Positions 2,854-15,677 of a stretch of 20,701 bases of DNA are shown here, in pieces. A program made the position numbers and the translations under genes. The notes under the pieces are model-generated. The model did no database searches and was not told the origin of the DNA. It was given only the letters and a program-made list of their open reading frames with translations. The DNA is from a virus: the IMG/VR virus record IMGVR_UViG_3300019871_000008, positions 1-20,701 of that record; one strand, 5' to 3'. Each line of letters begins with the position of its first letter. Position 1 is the first letter of the stretch.

Positions 2854-4514
2854 TCTGGGCTCCTTTGCATCTTAGAGTTAATATCTGCTAATTTAACTCC
2901 ACTATCCAGTCTATTTTGTTGCTCTGCCTGCTTAGCTCTTTCTTGGCGCAATGCAGCAACTTCTTTATCTGCTCTAATAATTCCTTCAGGAACCCCAGAC
3001 ACACGTCCCAGCATTAGTCCTGCCTTATCTGCGTCTACTATATCTGTGATACTTGGCCCTAGAATCTGGGCTGCCACCCCTAACTGTTGTATCCAGCCTT
3101 GAATGGCGGTACCGTCTCTTAGTTTTTGCGACCTAACTATTTGGCTGACAAAATCTACTTTGATATCTATCCCTCGTTCTATCAAGATGTCTGGCACAGG
3201 AGGAAATTCTCCTGCCCTTAACAACATACTGAACGATCTTAAGAGCATTGGAGTAAGAAACTCGTGGTTTAGTCTTCCAGCAGTGGGGCCAAGAACTTTA
3301 TGGGCCTGCTCCATGCGCCTAGAAACCTCGTAGGCACTCATTTCACCTGTCGCAGTACGAGGAGGTAGGTAAAGTTTATCCAGATAGAAAATTTTCTGTA
3401 TAGTGTCTGAAAAGCGCTGATGAGCATAGTCTATTTGAGCGAAGTCCTTACCGGCCCGTAGAGGCTTAATGCTATCCACGTCATCCACTACGTTCAAGGA
3501 ATCTGCCCGAAAATCCAATTCAGCCATTGTGTTCTGTTTGCTGACCAACCATGCGGTAGTAACGGCGTCGTGATATGCTCTAAGACTCAGGGATACGAAT
3601 TTGTTAAGGGTTTTTATTTCTGGCTCTGCTACGTGGCCTGGCCCCCTACCAGTAACTTCGCCTGGCATGGTATCCCATCTAGTGACAAACACTGGGAATT
3701 CATGGTATCCTTCTTGCTTAACTATGTTCTTACAAGATTCTTCTACATACACAGATTCATAAGGCATTGAAGACGCGTCTATTATTCCTGATGGAGATTT
3801 TTGTGTTCCTGGAAGAATCCTTGGATAGATACAGTGAATAAAATTGTGCAATTCATCTAACTTATTATTAGCTATGTTGTCTTTTATCGTGTCTGAAACC
3901 ATATCTACGCCGAATCTCTCTACAGCTTGCTTAGCGGTCAATCTAAGTTTTCTAAATACTGTGTCTACAATGCCGTCCATGTTTTCGGCCCACACTATCT
4001 CTGCTAGATGGATAGATTTGAAGACAAATCCCCCAAAGGTTCCTGATGAGGTGGGTTTCTTTTGTTCTTGCAACATTATCATGTTTCCCAGAGCAGGGAA
4101 CATGGTGTAGTTTTTAGACGACTCCGAGTCTAGGTTAGATTCACCTAAATGATGATGCAGCTTAAAAGTAGCCAAATCAAGCCACTCAAGAGCCTCACTG
4201 TCGTTGTTAAGTTCTTCTTGAACAAATCTGAAATTGGGTCTTTCTGTTGGGTCGGCAAAGTCTCGGATGAACGCCGCAAGGTCTCTATTAGCGATAGTGG
4301 CCTCAGCTGTATAGACGTCATCCGTAGTTTTCTCCCCAGGAGAGTTGCTTTCTATATTACTAAAGGAGACCAACTGATTAGGCAGAACATATTTGCAAAT
4401 ATCTTCCCATCGTTGCTCTGCGTTCACTCTTTCTGTGGAGGAAAACAGGCTCTGTGATCTTTTTATAAGTTCCGTAGCCTTTTCTTCTCTACCAGAACCT
4501 TTCGTGTATTCCAT
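2850..4514 (-). CDS. Portal (head-tail connector) protein
   Basis: The 554-residue product fits the podophage head-to-tail connector family (Head-tail_con type), which forms the dodecameric ring through which DNA is packaged. Evidence is the length, position two steps before the scaffold, and the N-terminal helix reading ELIKRSQSLFSSTERVNAEQ followed by RWEDICKYVLPN, typical of this family (R-x-x-W-x-x-I-x-x-Y-x-x-P). Later parts include a TRWDTMPGEVTGRGPGHVAEP segment (quoted in part), also typical of connector proteins (GRGPG), and a Q/K/R-rich C-terminus. I chose ATG 4514 rather than a TTG 16 codons upstream because the upstream gene stops one base before it and CGGGA sits at a usable distance. 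Confidence 0.9.
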   Translation of the reverse strand: MEYTKGSGREEKATELIKRSQSLFSSTERVNAEQRWEDICKYVLPNQLVSFSNIESNSPGEKTTDDVYTAEATIANRDLAAFIRDFADPTERPNFRFVQEELNNDSEALEWLDLATFKLHHHLGESNLDSESSKNYTMFPALGNMIMLQEQKKPTSSGTFGGFVFKSIHLAEIVWAENMDGIVDTVFRKLRLTAKQAVERFGVDMVSDTIKDNIANNKLDELHNFIHCIYPRILPGTQKSPSGIIDASSMPYESVYVEESCKNIVKQEGYHEFPVFVTRWDTMPGEVTGRGPGHVAEPEIKTLNKFVSLSLRAYHDAVTTAWLVSKQNTMAELDFRADSLNVVDDVDSIKPLRAGKDFAQIDYAHQRFSDTIQKIFYLDKLYLPPRTATGEMSAYEVSRRMEQAHKVLGPTAGRLNHEFLTPMLLRSFSMLLRAGEFPPVPDILIERGIDIKVDFVSQIVRSQKLRDGTAIQGWIQQLGVAAQILGPSITDIVDADKAGLMLGRVSGVPEGIIRADKEVAALRQERAKQAEQQNRLDSGVKLADINSKMQRSPE

Positions 4515-5467: not shown

Positions 5468-6808
5468 TTAAATTAATTTAGTATCTCTTAGAATCTTTCT
5501 TGGTGGTCGTGCCCAATCGCTTCCGTCTAAAGAGAAAGCGTCTTTTCCTAGAAAGATATTCATAAAGGCATCCGCTGCGTGGTCGTTTCCGTCTTTAGAT
5601 GGCTCTGATGAGAAGGTGCTTTTTTTAGGGTCGAATTTTCTTCTATATAGCTCTAATTTTCTTAGGCCTACTTTTACCACAGGCTCGTTGAAGTAGAAAG
5701 AGTTGAACATATTTCTTAAGCCATTAATAGCGTGTATTTTTCTACTAGGCTTACCACAAAGCACAGAACTCCCCATTCTCTTTCTCTTATCTTCCGATAG
5801 GAGTATATCAAACATTTCTTTCGTTGTCAACACGGCCTCTATGCCAGGTCTACGTTGATTGCCATCATGGGGAAAATAGTGATACCTATATCTATATCCC
5901 TTATCAACCAGCATATCGTAGTACTTCCTTAGGGCTTTGCTGGAATCTTCATAGTAGTCTACTACATAATACCGAGACCCGTCCCTTTGGACAAACCATG
6001 CTACGGTATCGTCTTCTACCCCTAAATCCCAATAAGTGTCTGTAATTCTATTATCATCGTAATCAAAATGGCCCACCCTACCTTCATTTCTAGCTTTCTG
6101 TATGAGGTCTCCAAAATATGACCCCGAAGCCTTAACGGTGAATTTACAGTAATATTCCTGATCTGCCCTATCTCGTGTAGTTTCCCCAGAGTCTACTAGT
6201 TTATCGACATCCTCTTTGCTGATTATGCCAGTGTCCTCTACGGTAACTCTATCTACAAACCATTCGGGATTATTCTGCACCCTGCCAATCATGTCATAGA
6301 AGTGATTGGGACCGTCAGGGGTAGAGTTAATTATCGCCCATCCCCCATTGGCTTTCAGCATAGGCTGAATAATATTGGGCCATATAGTGGCACTATGCCA
6401 AGCATACTCAGACATTACAACGCCTAATGGATTGGGTCCCCTCAACCTATCTGGGTCCAGAGCCCCAACAACGCTAATTAGCGAGCCATTCTTGAGTCGT
6501 ATCTCCATTCTCTGGTCGTTTGTCTTCTCCACGAATTCCTTGGGAATCAGGTCTCTAATTTCCCTTCCAGTATTATCCATGCCTTGCCAAAGAACCTTTC
6601 TGCCCAGCTCTGCTGTAGGGAATATATAGAAATACATCCCAGGCTTCATCGCCGCCTGACGAATCAAATGCACCCAACTGACCACATCCTTCCCTGCTCG
6701 ACGGTGCCATAACAGAATAGCGTATTTGGCCCCGGAGCTTTCTAACCTTTTTAATACAGCTAATTGGTGATCTCTCGGAACAAATTTGTAAGGAATCTCT
6801 AAATTCAT
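5468..6808 (-). CDS. terL: Terminase large subunit
   Basis: The 446-residue motor protein pumps DNA into the procapsid and cuts it. The N-terminal ATPase shows a Walker A-like HRRAGKD (residues 35-41), Walker B VVMSE with the catalytic Glu near 134, and a coupling motif NSTPDG (161-166). The C-terminal RNase H-like nuclease shows YWDLGVEDDT with Asp 261, an Asp in FPHDGN (about 315), and GNDHAADAF with Asp 409 and 413. The ATG at 6808 follows GAGGA. It is shorter than T7 TerL but normal for related podophages. It is separated from the small subunit gene by an unusual 672-base gap with its own possible promoter. Confidence 0.95.
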   Translation of the reverse strand: MNLEIPYKFVPRDHQLAVLKRLESSGAKYAILLWHRRAGKDVVSWVHLIRQAAMKPGMYFYIFPTAELGRKVLWQGMDNTGREIRDLIPKEFVEKTNDQRMEIRLKNGSLISVVGALDPDRLRGPNPLGVVMSEYAWHSATIWPNIIQPMLKANGGWAIINSTPDGPNHFYDMIGRVQNNPEWFVDRVTVEDTGIISKEDVDKLVDSGETTRDRADQEYYCKFTVKASGSYFGDLIQKARNEGRVGHFDYDDNRITDTYWDLGVEDDTVAWFVQRDGSRYYVVDYYEDSSKALRKYYDMLVDKGYRYRYHYFPHDGNQRRPGIEAVLTTKEMFDILLSEDKRKRMGSSVLCGKPSRKIHAINGLRNMFNSFYFNEPVVKVGLRKLELYRRKFDPKKSTFSSEPSKDGNDHAADAFMNIFLGKDAFSLDGSDWARPPRKILRDTKLI

Positions 6809-8294: not shown

Positions 8295-8323
8295 ATTGTA
8301 ACATATTAGTGATATTTTAGCAA
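8295..8323 (-). promoter_or_regulatory. Leftward promoter of the packaging operon
   Basis: On the minus strand TTGCTA (8323-8318), a 17-base spacer and TACAAT (8300-8295), with TGT directly before the -10 giving an extended -10. Transcription would start near 8288, about 48 bases before the first gene. A GGAGC/GCTCC hairpin (8328-8342) abuts the -35. Confidence 0.65.
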
Positions 8324-8422
8324 CCTCGGAGCTTGCGGCTCCTGATTTCTGCTAAATTTCCCTATTAGGATGTCAGGATGATGTTTTATTTCATCAAATC
8401 CCTTCTGAGTTGCAAATAGTTC

Positions 8423-8451
8423 TTGACAGATGAATGAATAAGCTGTAAACT
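8423..8451 (+). promoter_or_regulatory. Rightward promoter 1 of the control region
   Basis: TTGACA (8423-8428), a 17-base spacer and TAAACT (8446-8451). The -35 is perfect and the -10 matches at four of six. Transcription would begin near 8458 and enter the repeat at 8479-8522 about 20 bases later, mirroring the order at the capsid promoter. Confidence 0.6.
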
Positions 8452-8478
8452 CTGCGATGTTCCAGCCAGTTCCTCTAT

Positions 8479-8522
8479 ATCTATACTATATAGTATACTG
8501 TACAGTAACTACATAGTGCTTT
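8479..8522 (+). repeat. Palindrome-rich repeat shared with 1571-1615
   Basis: This block matches the reverse complement of 1571-1615 as described there. This copy contains a perfect 16-base palindrome (TATACTAT/ATAGTATA, 8482-8497) and the palindrome ACTGTACAGT. It lies just downstream of rightward promoter 1, in the same orientation relative to transcription as the capsid-leader copy. It could be an operator for a phage regulator or an RNA element acting on the elongating polymerase. Confidence 0.75.
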
Positions 8523-8659
8523 CTACCTCGAATCCTGTGAGCGGGCCGTACTTCTGTCCCTTCTCTGGCCTCACGGCGCTGCACTACTGCGCAGACTGGT
8601 GCGCCAGGGCAAATTCGGCGCGACCTTCCCTAGTATTTTGGATAAATGGCCCCGTGATG

Positions 8660-8688
8660 TTGACTCCCTATGCAGAATACTGTATAAT
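8660..8688 (+). promoter_or_regulatory. Rightward promoter 2, strongest of the control region
   Basis: TTGACT (8660-8665), a 17-base spacer and a perfect TATAAT (8683-8688). This is the best rightward promoter in the region. Transcription would begin near 8695 and meet an intrinsic terminator about 100 bases later. Confidence 0.75.
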
Positions 8689-8694
8689 TAATAA

Positions 8695-8812
8695 ATTCAG
8701 CAAATCTATAAGCCGCCGCTAGGTGCGCATCTTGCCAAGCCTCTTTAGGCTACGTCTTTTTAGGTCGCCTCTCCTCGACCGCAGGAATAGAATCTTCGGA
8801 TTCTATTTTTGT
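8695..8812 (+). ncRNA. Candidate small RNA or early-operon attenuator
   Basis: A near-consensus promoter and an intrinsic terminator bound a transcript of about 118 nt with no open frame that has a ribosome site. Three successive hairpins are visible: AGCCT/AGGCT (8738-8742, 8747-8751), GGTCG/CGACC (8763-8767, 8776-8780) and the terminator stem (8786-8807). It could be a free small RNA or the attenuated leader of the early operon, released by antitermination. The 5' arm AGCCTCTT can also pair with AAGAGGCT at 8840-8847 downstream, which would fit an attenuation switch. Confidence 0.5.
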
Positions 8813-8815
8813 TTG
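8786..8815 (+). terminator. Intrinsic terminator with TTCG loop
   Basis: A perfect 9-base stem (AATAGAATC, 8786-8794; GATTCTATT, 8799-8807) closes on a TTCG tetraloop and runs into TTTTTGTTTG. The T-run follows on the plus strand only, so the terminator acts on rightward transcription. It is the clearest terminator in the window, placed about 100 bases after rightward promoter 2 and before any early gene. Confidence 0.75.
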
Positions 8816-8828
8816 TATCGCATACTTG

Positions 8829-8848
8829 CAGCCTTTGTTAAGAGGCTG
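8829..8848 (+). repeat. Inverted repeat after the early terminator
   Basis: CAGCCT (8829-8834) and AGGCTG (8843-8848) form a perfect 6-base stem with an 8-base loop. The sequence echoes the AGCCT/AGGCT hairpin in the candidate RNA at 8738-8751, so the two can pair with each other's arms. Confidence 0.45.
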
Positions 8849-8879
8849 AAGACAGCCAGCCCACACATTAGTTAAGAAA

Positions 8880-8899
8880 CTACCTAGATAACTAGGTAG
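8880..8899. repeat. 20-base inverted repeat, operator candidate
   Basis: CTACCTAG (8880-8887) and CTAGGTAG (8892-8899) are perfect arms around ATAA. The size and symmetry suit a dimeric repressor site. It lies between the terminator and rightward promoter 3, about 145 bases upstream of that -35. Confidence 0.5.
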
Positions 8900-9406: not shown

Positions 9407-9535
9407 ATGCTAACGGTATTCACAATATCCTTTATAGCGAGCTTTGTATTACTCACAACCCTAATGTGTCACCTTTTGGTGGCAGACTATGTAGAATATA
9501 TTCCAGAGGAAGAAAGCCATGAAATACATATTTAA
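9407..9535 (+). CDS. Small single-pass membrane protein
   Basis: This 42-residue protein has an N-terminal hydrophobic helix (VFTISFIASFVLLTTLM, then CHLLVA) and an acidic tail (YVEYIPEEESHEI). AGGTG precedes the ATG, and the gene starts nine bases after the previous stop. It overlaps the start of the next gene by 17 bases. Function unknown; likely inner-membrane. Confidence 0.55.
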   Translation: MLTVFTISFIASFVLLTTLMCHLLVADYVEYIPEEESHEIHI

Positions 9536-9620
9536 AGTTTGGGCGGCAGCAATATCAGTTACCGTACTTGAAGCCAGCCTGCTTATTACATTAATAATAG
9601 CACTGTATAAATTAAACTAA
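9519..9620 (+). CDS. Very small membrane protein
   Basis: This 33-residue protein starts MKYIFKVWAAAISVTVLE and is hydrophobic nearly throughout, ending ALYKLN. AGAGGA lies at a good distance inside the preceding gene, with which it overlaps. The overlap and ribosome site support a real gene, but its shortness leaves doubt. Function unknown. Confidence 0.5.
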   Translation: MKYIFKVWAAAISVTVLEASLLITLIIALYKLN

Positions 9621-9631
9621 GGGGATTTGTC

Positions 9632-9751
9632 ATGTGCTATATCACTTTATTCGTCATCCTAACAATAGCCGTAGTGTTAAGATTAAGAATTTTGAAGAAA
9701 AGAAAGAAAAATTTTCATAGAAAATGGGACACATCGTATTTTTTAGAATAA
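9632..9751 (+). CDS. Small membrane protein with basic tail
   Basis: This 39-residue protein has a hydrophobic N-terminus (CYITLFVILTIAVVL) then a strongly basic stretch (RLRILKKRKKNFHRK). AGGGG precedes the ATG. Its last 12 codons lie inside the 85-base block that recurs at 11453-11537, so the second copy carries a relic of this gene's end. Function unknown. Confidence 0.55.
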   Translation: MCYITLFVILTIAVVLRLRILKKRKKNFHRKWDTSYFLE

Positions 9752-9799
9752 CCCAGTTGACAATCCAAATAACAAGAGTATTATTGATACATAGACACA
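9716..9799 (+). repeat. Duplicated promoter block, copy 1
   Basis: About 85 bases match 11453-11537 with three differences. The block contains the end of the small gene above and a complete promoter (TTGACA at 9757-9762, 16 bases, TATTAT at 9779-9784), and stops just before the ribosome site of the next gene. Confidence 0.85.
9757..9784 (+). promoter_or_regulatory. Promoter in duplicated block, copy 1
   Basis: TTGACA (9757-9762), a 16-base spacer and TATTAT (9779-9784, five of six). Transcription would start near 9791, about 30 bases before the ATG at 9823. Its preservation in the second copy supports function. Confidence 0.7.
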
Positions 9800-9822
9800 C
9801 CAAACATCCCAGGAGAGACAAC

Positions 9823-10041
9823 ATGGACAGCAAGAAGAACACAAAAGTAGATATATCGGTTGATCAAAAAAGTTTTGATACTAATTTTAAATTAGCCAAA
9901 GAAGCATACAAAAAACAAATGGCTATAAGAAATCTAGAAAGGAGGCAACCTCCGGCTATAAGAAAGCTAGAAAGGAGACTACCCCCTGACCCGTTCTTTC
10001 TAATGGATCTAAGAACCCATATACTTAATAGTTCTAAGTAG
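9823..10041 (+). CDS. Small basic protein with internal duplication
   Basis: The 72-residue protein begins MDSKKNTKVDISVD, an N-terminus shared base for base (44 bases) with the gene at 15486. The middle repeats AIRNLERRQPP and AIRKLERRLPP in tandem (33-base units at 9922-9954 and 9955-9987), giving a basic, proline-containing hinge. AGGAGA precedes the ATG. Upstream in-frame starts read through the promoter block and are unlikely. Function unknown; the basic repeats could bind nucleic acid, which is only a guess. Confidence 0.6.
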   Translation: MDSKKNTKVDISVDQKSFDTNFKLAKEAYKKQMAIRNLERRQPPAIRKLERRLPPDPFFLMDLRTHILNSSK

Positions 10042-10071
10042 TTCTAAGCCTGTCTCCAAAGGGGAATTGAA

Positions 10072-10191
10072 ATGACTATATTATTAGAAATATCCTTTGC
10101 ACTTGCGTTGTCGCTTGTGGTGATATGGATATCTGATTCTCTGGCGAACGGCTCTACATCGCCGAAGAAGAAACCTGGAGAAAAGAAATGA
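10072..10191 (+). CDS. Small membrane protein with basic C-terminus
   Basis: This 39-residue protein has a hydrophobic helix (ILLEISFALALSLVVIWI) and a hydrophilic basic tail (SPKKKPGEKK). AGGGG precedes the ATG, and the stop overlaps the next start (ATGA). Function unknown. Confidence 0.55.
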   Translation: MTILLEISFALALSLVVIWISDSLANGSTSPKKKPGEKK

Positions 10192-10472
10192 AAAATCTGT
10201 TGAGAATAAACCCTAATGAAGATTTTGTGGTTATATCTAGAGCCACCAAAGACGATGTGTATGAAGCCACGACTTATTGTAACGTTAGAGATTTTCTAGA
10301 TGATGTAGGGGTAATAGACATCTCATACAAAGAAGCAACGGATTGGGCAGCCAGACTTCACTATTGTGAGATTATTCAGTCTAAAAAGCAGTACTATGCC
10401 GTATGCGAGGAAACAAAAAACACTCTGGCCGTGTATAAAGCACTACATGATGCGGATTTTTTAATCGTGTAG
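10188..10472 (+). CDS. Hypothetical protein
   Basis: The 94-residue protein starts MKNLLRINPNEDFVVISRAT. It is soluble, mixed alpha/beta by pattern, with several tyrosines and three cysteines. The start overlaps the preceding stop, and GGAGA lies upstream. I do not recognise the family. Confidence 0.65.
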   Translation: MKNLLRINPNEDFVVISRATKDDVYEATTYCNVRDFLDDVGVIDISYKEATDWAARLHYCEIIQSKKQYYAVCEETKNTLAVYKALHDADFLIV

Positions 10473-10499
10473 AATGATATAATAAATAAGGAGACCGTA

Positions 10500-10715
10500 A
10501 TGAACGTATTCCTAGCATCTTTAGAGAGGTATACAGAAAAAAAGTTGAACGAATTAATTTGTTACATCAAGTACGAGGAAGCAGCTAGATTAGTAAACCG
10601 CGAGATATCAAAGGAGCTTAAATGTAATATAGAGAGGCTATCATACCAAGTGGAGAAATACGAAATAGCAATAGGTATGTTAACGGAATTAGATGCGCGC
10701 AGACCGAGGTTTTAG
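10500..10715 (+). CDS. Hypothetical coiled-coil-like protein
   Basis: The 71-residue protein is charged and helical throughout (YTEKKLNELICYIKYEEAAR, later IERLSYQVEKYEIAIGMLTE). A strong AAGGAG precedes the ATG. Function unknown. Confidence 0.65.
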   Translation: MNVFLASLERYTEKKLNELICYIKYEEAARLVNREISKELKCNIERLSYQVEKYEIAIGMLTELDARRPRF

Positions 10716-10763
10716 AAACAATTGGCCAACAGGGCTGAATAGGCTCTTATCAGGAGAATAGAA

Positions 10764-11306
10764 ATGAAAAAGATTTTAGTTCTATTAGCATCAGTTATTA
10801 GCCTATCAGCATCTGCAAAAATATTCCGACTAGAAGTCCCGGAAGTTTTAGATAAAGCCGAAGAAGTATCAAATCTAGTTCATGTTATCCAAGATGCAGA
10901 CGAAATGGATACTGTTTTATTGGGTATAACCAGCGAAGGAGGTAGCGTTATTCAAGGAATGAGAATTATAGACGCCATTAAAACAACAAAAGCTGCCGTT
11001 AAATGTACTGTAGTGGGAATGGCCGCTAGTATGTCTGCATTGATCGCCACATCCTGCCCTTCGCTAAGAGCGGCACCAGGAGCAATTATATTGTTTCACC
11101 ACATATATACAGTAGACCCAAAAACAGGAAAGAAGAAGTATTCTGAGGATCCGACATTTAAAATGCTGGCAAAATTCACTAACGGTGTTATGAAAAACAT
11201 ATTATCCGAAGAAGATTTCTTAAGAGTCCTTCTTAAAGAAGACGTTGTAATATCTTCAGAACAGTTCTCTTTAGATATGTGTAATAAACTTAAAGTATGT
11301 GGATAA
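10764..11306 (+). CDS. Exported ClpP-like serine protease
   Basis: The 180-residue product looks like a ClpP/crotonase-fold serine protease with an N-terminal signal peptide: MKK, a hydrophobic core (ILVLLASVISLS) and an ASA cleavage motif near residue 18. The mature part shows GITSEGGSV (54-62, oxyanion region as in ClpP), GMAASMSALI with probable nucleophile Ser 89, and IILFHH with His 112 or 113; Asp 160 is a possible third residue. The spacing is close to ClpP (Ser 97, His 122, Asp 171 in E. coli). It would act in the periplasm or at the membrane, away from a cytoplasmic ClpX. AGGAGA precedes the ATG. Substrate unknown. Confidence 0.75.
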   Translation: MKKILVLLASVISLSASAKIFRLEVPEVLDKAEEVSNLVHVIQDADEMDTVLLGITSEGGSVIQGMRIIDAIKTTKAAVKCTVVGMAASMSALIATSCPSLRAAPGAIILFHHIYTVDPKTGKKKYSEDPTFKMLAKFTNGVMKNILSEEDFLRVLLKEDVVISSEQFSLDMCNKLKVCG

Positions 11307-11315
11307 GGAGATAAC

Positions 11316-11444
11316 ATGAGTCAATATAGAAAAACAGAGTATGCCGTTCTATCCTCAGACGGCAGAATGTTTTTAATAACCTCAGATCACAGCTGGGCCA
11401 GATTTATGGCAATAGTAGTAAACGGCGATATAGTTTGCCTATAG
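11316..11444 (+). CDS. Small hypothetical protein
   Basis: The 42-residue protein starts MSQYRKTEYAVLSSDGRMFL and ends VVNGDIVCL. It is soluble, beta-rich by pattern. A strong AAGGAG precedes the ATG, ten bases after the protease stop, so it is likely cotranslated. The stop codon coincides with the start of the second duplicated block. Function unknown. Confidence 0.55.
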   Translation: MSQYRKTEYAVLSSDGRMFLITSDHSWARFMAIVVNGDIVCL

Positions 11445-11452
11445 CCGTAGTG

Positions 11453-11537
11453 CATAGAAAATGGGGCACATCGTATTTTTTAGAATAACCCAGTTGACAA
11501 TGCAAATAACAAGAGTATTATTGATACATAGACGCAC
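11453..11537 (+). repeat. Duplicated promoter block, copy 2
   Basis: This is the second copy of the block at 9716-9799. The 12 bases just before it (ATAGCCGTAGTG, 11441-11452) also occur in the gene at 9632 (9665-9676), where 39 bases separate them from the block. Copy 2 is therefore a longer duplication with an internal 39-base deletion. Confidence 0.85.
11494..11521 (+). promoter_or_regulatory. Promoter in duplicated block, copy 2
   Basis: TTGACA (11494-11499), a 16-base spacer and TATTAT (11516-11521). Transcription would start near 11528, about 30 bases before the ATG at 11559, so the second half of the early region has its own entry point. Confidence 0.7.
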
Positions 11538-11558
11538 AAAAATTTTAGGAGAGATGAA

Positions 11559-11840
11559 ATGAGCAAATCTATTAGCAAAGATCAGCTTGTCAAAAAAGAA
11601 TATGACGAAGGGTATGCCAATGGTTATCGCGATAAGACCTCAGTTACTAGGCGTTTTGGCTTAGGTTTTGACAGCATCTTAGAAGAAGCATTAGGAGAAG
11701 CTTACGACGAAGGGTATGCGCACGGAATATCAGACAGGGAAGTTTCTGAGGGGATAGATAACATAACCTACTCAATCCCCAAGTATTTCCCTTGGGAGTT
11801 ACCGAAAATAGACTATAGACAAGGAGATAACCATGTATAG
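11559..11840 (+). CDS. Hypothetical protein with repeated YDEGYA motif
   Basis: The 93-residue protein contains EYDEGYANGYRDK and AYDEGYAHGISDR, two copies of a Y-D-E-G-Y-A-x-G motif about 35 residues apart. This periodic aromatic/glycine pattern is common in small phage proteins but I cannot name a function. AGGAGA precedes the ATG, and the next gene starts inside its end. A related YDKGFAEG motif occurs in the gene at 16603. Confidence 0.65.
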   Translation: MSKSISKDQLVKKEYDEGYANGYRDKTSVTRRFGLGFDSILEEALGEAYDEGYAHGISDREVSEGIDNITYSIPKYFPWELPKIDYRQGDNHV

Positions 11841-12099
11841 CCCAAAATCAAGGCTTCAATCGGAAATAATTAGAATTAAAACAACAATAGATGTGGAGAT
11901 CGAAAAATACGGCTCGCTCTTAGCGGGAGCGGATTATCTCTTTAGCCGCACAGATGTTCTTTCTAAAACGGATGAATTGATTCTTTCTGATATGATGTTG
12001 GTTCTGTCTAATTTTGAGCATCAAACCAAATTGGCTCTTGACAATCTTAAAGAATTGAAACTGTGTAAAAAAGAGATTAACGAAACAACTGGAGCCTAA
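11833..12099 (+). CDS. Hypothetical helical protein
   Basis: The 88-residue protein is helical with regularly spaced leucines (LALDNLKELKLCKKE at the C-terminus). It starts inside the previous gene after GGAGA, so the two are coupled. Function unknown. Confidence 0.65.
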   Translation: MYSPKSRLQSEIIRIKTTIDVEIEKYGSLLAGADYLFSRTDVLSKTDELILSDMMLVLSNFEHQTKLALDNLKELKLCKKEINETTGA

Positions 12100-12184
12100 A
12101 GTGGCCGTAAAGATACAAAACAGTTTTACTTTAGCAATAAAACGCAGTACAGTTGGTTTGTACTTAATAACACAGGAGAACAAG

Positions 12185-13225
12185 ATGACGGCTCCAGTAA
12201 GAACCCCTTCCTCCTCTATTCTTTTAGATGGAACGGAAGAAGAAAGCAATACAAAAAATCTAAATACTTGCTCTGGAGACCTCACGCCGGCCAAAATGAT
12301 GGCACACCTGGACAGCGTTGTTGTGGGACAAGCAGAGGCAAAGAAGAAACTGGTGTCTGCTACAATGATGCACTATTTGCGAGCAGGGCTATCTATCTCT
12401 AAGCAAACAGATAAAGAAGGCCTTAGTTCTTTTGCTATACATAAAACCAATGTCTTGCTTACCGGCCCTACGGGAGTAGGAAAGACCCTCATGTTAAGAA
12501 CGTTGGCAGAGTTCGCTGGATTCCCCTTTATAGAACTGGATGTAACTAAGTTGTCTCCGTCTGGATACGTAGGGGACAGTATATTTGAGGCCATTAAAGC
12601 CGGAATAGAATCGTTGTCTGCCAAGAGCGACTATAAATTCTGCCACAAATACAGCATGGTTTTTGTTGATGAACTAGACAAACTAAGCTTTAATGGAGTA
12701 AACGAGGCAGGCTGGTATAGAAAAATCCAAGGCTCCCTTCTCAAAATTGTAGAGGGAATGAAAATAAGCGCAGGGATTTCTACGCAAAACATGATGTTCG
12801 TCTTTGGGGGTAACTTTGAGGAGATGAGAAAAAACAGAAAAGGGGCAGGAAAGAAAGCCATAGGGTTTGGAGAGACGCTTGTAGACTCCTCTGTAGCGGA
12901 AGCAGAAACACATGAGCAACTTATGAAATGCGGAATCATGCCAGAACTTCTGGGAAGAATAGCCGTTATAGGAGAATTAGAGGATTTAACTAAAGAACAA
13001 GTAAAAGAGGTTATCCTTAACAGTAAAGCATCCCCGTATAGCAATTATGTGGAAGCTCTCGGCAGAGTCGGTTTGGTAGTAAAAGCTTCGGACAAGGAAA
13101 TAGATGAGATTGTAGAAAGAGCTATGAAGAAAAAAATCGGCCTCAGGGGTCTGTCATCTGTTCTCGCAGACTTCTTTATGCCGCACATACTAGAACATAA
13201 TTACGAAAATAAGGAAGGAAAATGA
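12185..13225 (+). CDS. ClpX-like AAA+ unfoldase
   Basis: The 346-residue product closely follows the ClpX/HslU plan. It has Walker A GPTGVGKT (94-101), a GYVG pore loop (127-130), Walker B VFVDELDK (159-166), the ClpX-like FVFGGNFEEM, an IGFG loop (226-229) matching the IGF loop that docks ClpX on ClpP, GIMPELLGR with the probable arginine finger (258), and sensor-2 GLRGL (319-323). The N-terminal zinc-binding domain of ClpX is absent, so substrate choice must differ. I chose ATG 12185 after AGGAGA; a GTG at 12101 adds 28 codons and has a weaker GGAG site. It overlaps the next gene (ATGA). Confidence 0.85.
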   Translation: MTAPVRTPSSSILLDGTEEESNTKNLNTCSGDLTPAKMMAHLDSVVVGQAEAKKKLVSATMMHYLRAGLSISKQTDKEGLSSFAIHKTNVLLTGPTGVGKTLMLRTLAEFAGFPFIELDVTKLSPSGYVGDSIFEAIKAGIESLSAKSDYKFCHKYSMVFVDELDKLSFNGVNEAGWYRKIQGSLLKIVEGMKISAGISTQNMMFVFGGNFEEMRKNRKGAGKKAIGFGETLVDSSVAEAETHEQLMKCGIMPELLGRIAVIGELEDLTKEQVKEVILNSKASPYSNYVEALGRVGLVVKASDKEIDEIVERAMKKKIGLRGLSSVLADFFMPHILEHNYENKEGK

Positions 13226-13779
13226 CGCCGGAACAATATGTGGAAATATTGCCCACTATTCAGATTCCTGTCAATTGGGAGAATTGGCTTAGAAAACCCA
13301 AAGACGGGATATGGGCCGACGATCCCAAAATAGCTAAAAGGTTAAAAAGATGTCTAATAAGAATCTTGCACAAGAAAAGAGGTAGCCCTAGCTACTACCA
13401 AGATGCGGACATCATAAGTATGCCGCAGAAAAACAGATATAGATATGCTTGGGCATACTACGGAGCGCTCTTTCACGAAGTGGGCCACTGGACAGGACAC
13501 CCTGATAGAATGAATAGGGGATTAGCGCACCCTGTAGATAACAGGGAAGCATATGCCAGAGAAGAGTTGATAGCCGAAATGGTTTCTAGGCGTCTATGCA
13601 TAGAATTTAACATGGAGGACGGAGAAAGACAGCACCTAGAATATCTTAAAATCTATTGGGATCACCTATGCTTCAACAGAGAGGACATATTCGTCGCCTC
13701 CGAGAAAGCCCATAAAGCATTAAGGTTTATAAATAGCGCTTTACTTATGTGCCCTAAAGAATACACTGGCCTCGTGTAG
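13222..13779 (+). CDS. ArdC-type zincin metallopeptidase
   Basis: The 185-residue protein carries the zincin motif HEVGH (85-89) in YYGALFHEVGHWTGHPDRMN, followed by AYAREELIAEMVSRRLC with acidic residues suited to the third zinc ligand. This matches the C-terminal metallopeptidase domain of ArdC antirestriction and related plasmid/phage proteins (FHELVHWTGH...YAREELVAE). The ssDNA-binding N-terminal domain of ArdC is missing. ArdC protects incoming DNA from restriction; whether this shorter form does so is unknown. The start overlaps the ClpX-like stop, so both are likely made together. Confidence 0.8.
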   Translation: MTPEQYVEILPTIQIPVNWENWLRKPKDGIWADDPKIAKRLKRCLIRILHKKRGSPSYYQDADIISMPQKNRYRYAWAYYGALFHEVGHWTGHPDRMNRGLAHPVDNREAYAREELIAEMVSRRLCIEFNMEDGERQHLEYLKIYWDHLCFNREDIFVASEKAHKALRFINSALLMCPKEYTGLV

Positions 13780-13813
13780 TACAGAACATCTGGTGAGAAT
13801 CTGGGAGATTGTC

Positions 13814-14728
13814 ATGATAGAAACTTTAAAGAGAGTGGTTGTTGAAGCCCCTAAGAACATTAGGCTCAAAGTTGCTTTAGGGGCCGTTGCTCTTTCTCTG
13901 CTCATAATATTAGAAATATATGGAACAGCTTTGATACCAGAATGGAGAAAGGCGTTTTACTCAGTACTAGAGAAAAAGGAGTCTGGACAGCTTTTTGGAA
14001 CACTGCAGTCCTTTGTATTTCTCATGAGCCTTTTAATATTTAGTCAGGCATTTAAACAATTCGTCGGAAGACGTACAGGACAGATCATAAGAACATACTT
14101 AACGGATTCTTTATACAAGCAATGGAAAGTTGGAGATGTAAACCGAGTGGACAACCCCAGTCAAAGAATAAATGAAGACTGCAAAATAGCTACAGATTGC
14201 GCTATAAGGGTAGGTACAGAAGTAGTTATCTCTGCCTCTTTAGTCATTCTTCTGATTTTAGAATCCATGAACAACCTAAAATTAGTTGGGTCGGCTCTTA
14301 TATACACCGTTATTATAAGCCTGGTGGCCATGCTTTTTAGAAAACCTCTAATTAAATCTGAGATAGCTACGCAGAAAGCAGAAGCAGATCATCGACAAGT
14401 ACTTAGCAAGATATCCTTGAACATAGAAGACGATAGCGCAAAGGAAAAGTTTTCTTCAGTATTATTTGCAACCAGAAAATATTTATCTACTTTGTTAGGA
14501 TACGGTATATTCAGCGCCAGCCAAGCTCAGCTTTCTGTTATCGTTCCCTGGTTAATACTTTCCGTTCCTTATTTCAGAGGGGAAATATCTTTAGGAGATT
14601 TCATGTCGGGGGTTGCAGTATTCGAACTTATTGTTGTAAACTCAACCATATTAGTAACACTCTTTCCAGAACTCACCAGAGCGCAGGCGTCCTGGATAAG
14701 AATCAAAGAATTTTATAACTCTTTATAG
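13814..14728 (+). CDS. SbmA/BacA-like inner-membrane protein
   Basis: The 304-residue protein has about six membrane helices (near 18-38, 62-82, 133-152, 158-176, 237-256, 265-285). Conserved features are EWRKAFYSVLE, YLTDSLYKQWKVGD and NPSQRINED (114-122), which match the SbmA/BacA and ABC_membrane_2 family (WR-x-x-FY, LT-x-x-x-x-x-W, NPDQRI-x-ED). No ATP-binding domain is fused or adjacent, as in proton-driven SbmA, which imports peptides and microcins. It is shorter than SbmA (about 400). ATG 13814 follows GGGAGA; a GTG at 13793 is possible. Peptide transport is inferred from family only. Confidence 0.75.
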   Translation: MIETLKRVVVEAPKNIRLKVALGAVALSLLIILEIYGTALIPEWRKAFYSVLEKKESGQLFGTLQSFVFLMSLLIFSQAFKQFVGRRTGQIIRTYLTDSLYKQWKVGDVNRVDNPSQRINEDCKIATDCAIRVGTEVVISASLVILLILESMNNLKLVGSALIYTVIISLVAMLFRKPLIKSEIATQKAEADHRQVLSKISLNIEDDSAKEKFSSVLFATRKYLSTLLGYGIFSASQAQLSVIVPWLILSVPYFRGEISLGDFMSGVAVFELIVVNSTILVTLFPELTRAQASWIRIKEFYNSL

Positions 14729-15122: not shown

Positions 15123-15482
15123 ATGAAGACATACCCAACAGGAGGAAAAAAGGACGTTGCAGGAAAACTTCCATATCATCTTATACCAAAAGAAGCCATG
15201 GACTCCCTCGCAACAGGCTTAGAATGCGGCATCAAAAAAGGGTATGCTGCCCACAACTGGACCGCGGGCCTACCTTATATGGAAGTTCATGTCGCTGCTC
15301 TTTTGAGACATATATTTAAGTTTGCCTCAGGAGAAGACATGAACGAAGAACTTGACAAAGACGGAAAACCTTTCTACACTCATCATATAGACAACGCCAT
15401 GGCGCATTTAGCCATGTTGGCTACGCAGATAAGAAGAAGCAGGGTTGATTTAGACGACAGATGGAACACAAAAGGAGAGTAA
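15123..15482 (+). CDS. dATP/dGTP diphosphohydrolase-like domain (DUF5664)
   Basis: The 119-residue protein matches the DUF5664 pattern seen in phage dATP/dGTP diphosphohydrolases: GGKKDVAGKLPYHLIPKEAM near the start, then GIKKGYAAHNW, AALLRHIFKFASGED, and HHIDNAMAHLAMLATQ. This resembles K-x-D-x-GK-x-x-x-x-L-x-P, KY-x-x-x-NW, ALRH-x-x-x-W-x-x-GE, and H-x-x-H-x-x-x-x-x-x-x-L. The family acts on purine deoxynucleotides and in some phages accompanies 2-aminoadenine genomes; no purZ-like gene is visible here. The start is three bases after the previous stop with a weak ribosome site, so reinitiation is likely. Confidence 0.7.
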   Translation: MKTYPTGGKKDVAGKLPYHLIPKEAMDSLATGLECGIKKGYAAHNWTAGLPYMEVHVAALLRHIFKFASGEDMNEELDKDGKPFYTHHIDNAMAHLAMLATQIRRSRVDLDDRWNTKGE

Positions 15483-15485
15483 AAG

Positions 15486-15529
15486 ATGGACAGCAAGAAG
15501 AACACAAAAGTAGATATATCGGTTGATCA
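15486..15529 (+). repeat. 44-base direct repeat with 9823-9866
   Basis: The first 44 bases of this gene are identical to 9823-9866, starting at the ATG itself. Identity at DNA level, including third codon positions, points to recent duplication or gene conversion rather than protein-level conservation alone. Confidence 0.9.
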
Positions 15530-15677
15530 TATAAATAAAGTAAAAAAACTCTTGACAGAGGCACAAGAAGTACTTACATTATATCTAGAGACCGAAAAAG
15601 GCTCTATGCAGGCAGGTTGGGTGAATCAGGCTAAGATGAAACTTGAATTGACACAACAAACACTAAATCTTTTGTAG
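15486..15677 (+). CDS. Small protein sharing its N-terminus with the gene at 9823
   Basis: The 63-residue protein begins MDSKKNTKVDISVD, identical to the gene at 9823 over 44 bases, then diverges into a helical region (INKVKKLLTEAQEVLTLYLE). GGAGA precedes the ATG, three bases after the previous stop. A possible promoter lies within it. Function unknown. Confidence 0.6.
   Translation: MDSKKNTKVDISVDHINKVKKLLTEAQEVLTLYLETEKGSMQAGWVNQAKMKLELTQQTLNLL
15552..15580 (+). promoter_or_regulatory. Possible promoter for the replication genes
   Basis: TTGACA (15552-15557), a 17-base spacer and TACATT (15575-15580) inside the gene at 15486. It would feed the DNA-binding protein gene at 15706. It sits in coding sequence, so coincidence cannot be excluded. 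Confidence 0.35.

Follow-up and report, generated by a model that had tools for sequence, protein, structure and literature searches.

A conserved early-region gene cluster of podovirus-like phages encodes a putative exported ClpP-fold peptidase, a reduced ClpX-like unfoldase and an SbmA/YddA-type transporter domain

In this study, a virus record from IMG/VR (IMGVR_UViG_3300019871_000008; 20,701 nt), analysed over its whole length and hereafter called the window, was investigated for a group of plus-strand genes encoding a ClpP-like peptidase, a ClpX-like unfoldase, a zincin metallopeptidase and an SbmA/YddA-type transporter domain. In our estimation, there is about an even chance that these genes constitute an early-region cassette, comprising three conserved genes and one accessory gene (the zincin), whose products act in two compartments instead of forming a single machine. 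In the cytoplasm, the ClpX-like unfoldase, which lacks or has altered the parts that read the usual substrates (the zinc-binding domain, the RKH segment and the pore-2 loop), would dock on host ClpP and redirect it. Outside the inner membrane, the ClpP-fold serine peptidase would be exported and would cut peptides without an ATPase, as the periplasmic SppA does. In the inner membrane, the transporter, which has no nucleotide-binding domain (NBD) and is probably proton-driven, would move peptides or similar solutes, and the exported peptidase and this presumed importer may jointly salvage peptides.

The four genes were found where the first-pass annotation of this DNA had placed them, and its family assignments were borne out by profile matches. 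The product of the ClpP-like gene (10764-11306, 180 amino acids) matched Pfam CLP_protease (1.7e-13), and that of the ClpX-like gene (12101-13225) matched Pfam AAA_2 (1.9e-15) and, as its best match, NCBIfam ClpX (1.5e-50; 172 bits, short of the cut-off of 359). The zincin (13222-13779, 185 amino acids) matched Pfam MPTase-PolyVal (4.3e-26), and the transporter (13793-14728) matched ABC_membrane_2 (1.5e-15) and SbmA_BacA (3.9e-8). The overlap claimed between clpX and the zincin gene was also confirmed, at 4 bases (ATGA), and the tight packing holds for the last three genes; the ClpP-like gene is set apart by two small genes (11559-11840 and 11833-12099) and a strong promoter-like repeat (11453-11541). 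Two start codons likely lie slightly downstream of the mechanical open reading frame (ORF) starts, namely, ATG 12185 for clpX (preceded by AGGAG; 346 amino acids) and ATG 13814 for the transporter (preceded by GGGAGA; 304 amino acids).

Two related phages, L002 (39.5 kb, G001) and L005 (also L003; 40.1 kb, G002), were identified in IMG/VR, and the comparison set thus consisted of three metagenome contigs, all syntenic; the genome-wide comparison covered the L005 contig up to its final 133 bases. Window proteins matched both relatives collinearly along the genome, mostly at 30-80% identity, and the window is a fragment of a podovirus-like genome of roughly 40 kb. The exported-type ClpP, ClpX and SbmA-like genes occur in identical order in both relatives, spanning about 3 to 5.3 kb and standing upstream of the dATP/dGTP hydrolase, SSB and PolA genes, and most of the small genes around this trio are not kept in both. 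Nonsynonymous change in the trio was limited (pN 0.28-0.39 vs pS 0.70-0.79) despite near-saturated synonymous change, and the three proteins are therefore under constraint. The grouping predicted by the first-pass annotation is thus conserved for three of its four members, and the single, scattered genes that it had named as contrary evidence were not seen in the relatives, where the trio remains linked. Because all three genomes are syntenic, this linkage is weak evidence of cooperation and may reflect shared ancestry. The ClpX query alone confirmed no relative among viral contigs; in the other viral ClpX loci fetched, no SbmA-like gene was present near clpX, and 22 of these loci hold an ordinary ClpP without signal peptide.

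The predicted structure of the ClpP-like protein (pLDDT 87) matched ClpP throughout, with 6hwn as the best match (Z 18.5, root-mean-square deviation 4.5, 150 aligned residues). Its catalytic residues (Ser89/His112/Asp160) align with ClpP S97, H122 and D171, as do those of all four copies in the three genomes, L005 carrying two copies of the gene. At the N-terminus, the axial collar and first helix of ClpP give way to Lys, a run of hydrophobic residues and a site of the Ala-X-Ala type; in the window copy, the predicted signal peptide is MKKILVLLASVISLSASA^KIF, and a simple signal-peptide rule was passed by three of the four copies. Most of the pocket residues by which ClpP grips ClpX have disappeared, and the equivalent of Arg192 is missing in three copies. 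All four copies have Cys81 and Cys98, and three have a C-terminal Cys pair, which would fit disulfides formed outside the cytoplasm. With the collar replaced by a signal peptide and the residues for ClpX docking gone, the likeliest role of the protein is that of a periplasmic peptidase rather than of partner to the phage unfoldase, a partnership that export would preclude. SppA, a Ser-Lys enzyme, shares the Clp fold, and the phage proteins are probably exported as SppA is; they differ from SppA in keeping His and Asp. An unrelated 171-kb phage, L183, encodes a ClpP-fold protein with a lipoprotein-type signal (5836-6498), so that the export of Clp-fold peptidases may be a device that phages use repeatedly. 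As separate observations, the two L005 genes (1976-2614 and 2997-3584) have diverged, and between them lie a stem resembling a terminator (2637-2655) and a promoter-like site (2685-2712); L183 also encodes a protein with WGR and PARP catalytic domains (9489-10772).

The motor of the ClpX-like protein is intact, including Walker A/B, the pore-1 Tyr, the Arg finger and the sensor-2 Arg, and the ClpP-docking loop is retained, reading IGF, IGF and MGF in the three genomes; the position of V274 is occupied by a hydrophobic residue. In E. coli ClpX, the RKH loops are needed for ssrA substrates and the IGF loops for ClpP binding, and the IGF loop and ClpP Arg192 have roles in the ClpX-ClpP contact (PMC7112951). 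The phage proteins share the AAA+ motor, pore-1 and IGF loop with E. coli ClpX and differ in what surrounds them. The zinc-binding Cys4 domain is gone, with no CxxC before Walker A in the three phage proteins, whereas at least two CxxC precede Walker A in 70 of 77 viral ClpX proteins; each of the three has an RKH segment that is either shorter or dissimilar, and their pore-2 loop is altered. Both the zinc Cys4 and the RKH segment are clearly missing only in these three of the 77 proteins. Because IGF is kept and RKH is lost, an unfoldase that works with host ClpP under a new substrate choice is the simplest reading, and the protein is most likely coupled to host ClpP, with its substrate selection altered. 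Other phages use related strategies: ClpP itself or ClpS, its adaptor, is encoded by jumbo phages (PMC7824862), and both ClpX and HslU may be targets of a phiKMV-like acetyltransferase (PMC7552054). L005 additionally encodes an HslV-family peptidase beside SSB and PolA (8317-8886; phrog_1040, 5e-17; no Pfam match), and no counterpart was present among the listed ORFs of the equivalent block in the window or L002.

The transporter was predicted (pLDDT 78) to be a six-helix type IV ABC transmembrane domain, resembling, among others, Rv1819c (6tqe; Z 21.8, 21% identity) and SbmA (9g3g; Z 22.5). Scores in this range (Z 21-25) are shared by many ABC exporters, and fold similarity by itself cannot discriminate between them; by profile, the phage proteins were closest to YddA (58.1 bits vs 21.6 bits for SbmA), and they share a DNPxQRI-type signature with the YddA/BclA and Rv1819c group. 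The members of that group possess an NBD and coupling helices, whereas the phage proteins (304-311 amino acids in the three genomes) have neither. The segment in which coupling helices would lie (from W to the Q of QRI) is 11-14 residues long in the phage proteins and 11 in SbmA, compared with 18-30 (20-21 in most) in the 80 cellular proteins nearest to them; coupling helices are thus missing, as in SbmA. No ABC ATPase or NBD gene scored over the cut-off in the two relatives of about 40 kb or in the window, the latter a fragment. A profile from the phage-only alignment had no match in genome contigs, and a profile with E. coli YddA added retrieved YddA/BclA-type cellular proteins of 22-27% identity, nearly all full-length; among the 80 nearest, 73 carry Walker A after the transmembrane domain, six others are full-length (580-650 amino acids) and one is cut by a contig end.

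SLiPTs are defined by having lost both the NBD and the coupling helices and by possessing a ladder of glutamates, and SbmA was proposed in 2026 to derive from an ABC transporter domain turned secondary transporter (PMC13316013). With E. coli SbmA, a proton-driven importer of the SbmA/BacA (SLiPT) type, the phage proteins share the type IV fold, the reduction to a transmembrane domain without NBD or coupling helices, and ladder glutamates E193, E269 and E276. They differ from SbmA in overall identity (16%) and in lacking TM0, the N-terminal approximately 80 residues of SbmA having no phage counterpart. Acidic positions conserved among the phage proteins in or near the helices are E41, E60, E143, E157, E278 and E293. 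The phage protein looks like an NBD-less, SbmA-like secondary transporter, and the best reading of its sequence is a YddA-derived transmembrane domain without its ATPase, paralleling the path proposed for SbmA; its transport would be proton-coupled and directed inward. The best NCBIfam match was NF009036 (PRK12369, 'putative transporter', 326 amino acids; 1.8e-13), of similar length, but at 50.5 bits against a cut-off of 385 the phage transporter is not a member. A tblastn search of the transporter against 50,697 GenBank phage records gave no match, and the literature searched held no report of a phage-encoded SbmA, including SbmA together with phage ClpX/ClpP.

The zincin gene is present in the window and absent from L002 and L005, and because both relatives lack it, the zincin is a passenger of the window phage outside the conserved module. 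Its HEVGH motif and downstream Glu are present, and it aligns only to the C-terminal part of its phrog (169-303 of 324), corresponding to the C-terminal half of ArdC. The likeness to the ArdC/polyvalent-protein zincins (PMC5512222) lies in the MPTase domain with HEXXH and Glu; the difference is that the phage zincin stands alone. The single-stranded DNA-binding ArdC-N domain is missing from it, and Pfam found no other domain.

Several points weigh against a two-compartment cassette. The set occurs in three genomes only, all mutually syntenic. The export call rests on a home-made, simple signal-peptide rule, which the L002 copy, with its weaker hydrophobic core, fails; in L183, the exported-looking ClpP has neither ClpX nor a transporter within 6 kb on either side, so an exported peptidase does not need the transporter. 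In the transporter, SbmA E203, E287 and E378 and the Tyr368 gate are unmatched. The main rival is that these are independent host-takeover genes, adjacent through early-gene clustering and shared ancestry, with ClpX retargeting host ClpP, the zincin countering restriction, and the peptidase and transporter performing separate envelope jobs. We regard this as somewhat unlikely, although it would account for the synteny of the three genomes along their length, for a zincin that comes and goes, and for other phages that have ClpX without the transporter or exported ClpP without ClpX or transporter nearby; it does not explain why the trio is kept in both relatives when most small genes around it are not. 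A more specific form of the cassette, in which the periplasmic peptidase makes peptides, an ATP-free, SLiPT-like importer that lost its NBD independently takes them up, and the stripped ClpX turns host ClpP into a general supplier of amino acids from host protein, is possible but appears unlikely.

Two further explanations are less likely than independent host-takeover genes. The transporter could be a decoy, a bare transmembrane domain that pairs with a host SbmA or YddA protomer and poisons it, thereby blocking the uptake of peptide antibiotics or a later phage. Its reduced form, with an incomplete glutamate ladder and no TM0, and the dimeric action of members of its fold class (PMC13316013) fit such a role, but identity to cellular relatives of about 25% is low for mixed dimers and a pure decoy would not need the three ladder glutamates that are kept, which renders this idea improbable. 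Cooperation of all four products in a single unfolding, cutting and transport machine had been suggested by the first-pass annotation; in such a machine, phage ClpX would feed phage ClpP, the zincin would finish the peptides and the SbmA-like protein would transport them. The gene cluster itself and the clpX-zincin overlap are what speak for it; this claim was not supported, as the ClpP-like protein carries a signal peptide and has lost the collar, the docking pocket residues and, in most copies, Arg192, and the zincin is not conserved, and we consider such a machine very improbable. It is harder still to credit the ClpP-like protein with the role of a head maturation protease. Its best curated models include ClpP-related head maturation proteases (2.4e-14, below cut-off), and its matches on plasmids are mostly annotated head maturation proteases of phage-like plasmids. 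However, the gene lies in the early plus-strand block, far from the minus-strand capsid genes, and encodes a signal peptide, and a separate protein (1681-2610), with a weak match to a protease profile (phrog_458, 4.6e-7), adjoins the major head protein.

The remainder of the window is arranged in two blocks. Capsid, portal-type connector and terminase genes occupy the minus strand on the left, the connector showing approximately 30% identity to podovirus connectors of Pelagibacter, Yersinia and Vibrio phages; the plus-strand early/replication block on the right comprises the ClpP-like, ClpX-like, zincin and SbmA-like genes followed by dATP/dGTP hydrolase, SSB, PolA and YqaJ-type exonuclease genes. 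Megablast of the window against the same 50,697 phage records gave no match, and the window hence has no DNA-level neighbour among them; a PADLOC scan returned weak matches only. The dATP/dGTP diphosphohydrolase-type protein (15123-15482), followed by SSB and PolA, resembles the arrangement in diaminopurine phages. A PurZ/diaminopurine genome, raised by the hydrolase and PolA, was rejected after no PF00709 match was obtained in the three records.

A direct repeat of 89 bp holds a near-consensus sigma-70-like promoter with a 16-base spacer (TTGACA-N16-TATTAT). Copy 1 (9716-9804, plus strand) precedes the leader genes and the ClpP-like gene, and copy 2 (11453-11541), on the same strand between the ClpP-like gene and clpX, is 96% identical to it. 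The repeat is probably a duplicated early promoter; copy 1 would drive the leader and ClpP-like genes and copy 2 the clpX-zincin-transporter genes, and a common timing is possible. A 40-base exact pattern of the repeat was found nowhere else in IMG/VR, and the L002 record yielded nothing similar; upstream of the equivalent gene block of L005 stand promoter-like sites whose spacing is likewise 16 bases. Counted overall, however, promoter-like sites were about as frequent as expected by chance in the window and in L002, and L005 exceeded that expectation only slightly. A further repeat of 52 bp (9820-9871 and 15483-15534, 94% identical) lies at the starts of two small genes (MDSKKNTKVDISVD...), which suggests a gene-start duplication.

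If the proposed functions are correct, the window and its relatives would provide the first example in phages, within the literature searched, of an SbmA/YddA-type transporter that lacks an ATPase. They may also represent a second instance, parallel to the one proposed for SbmA, in which an ABC transporter domain became a secondary transporter (PMC13316013). Exported ClpP-fold peptidases have been little described in phages. The stripped ClpX would offer a natural test that separates the parts of the unfoldase that pick substrates from the parts that only dock ClpP.

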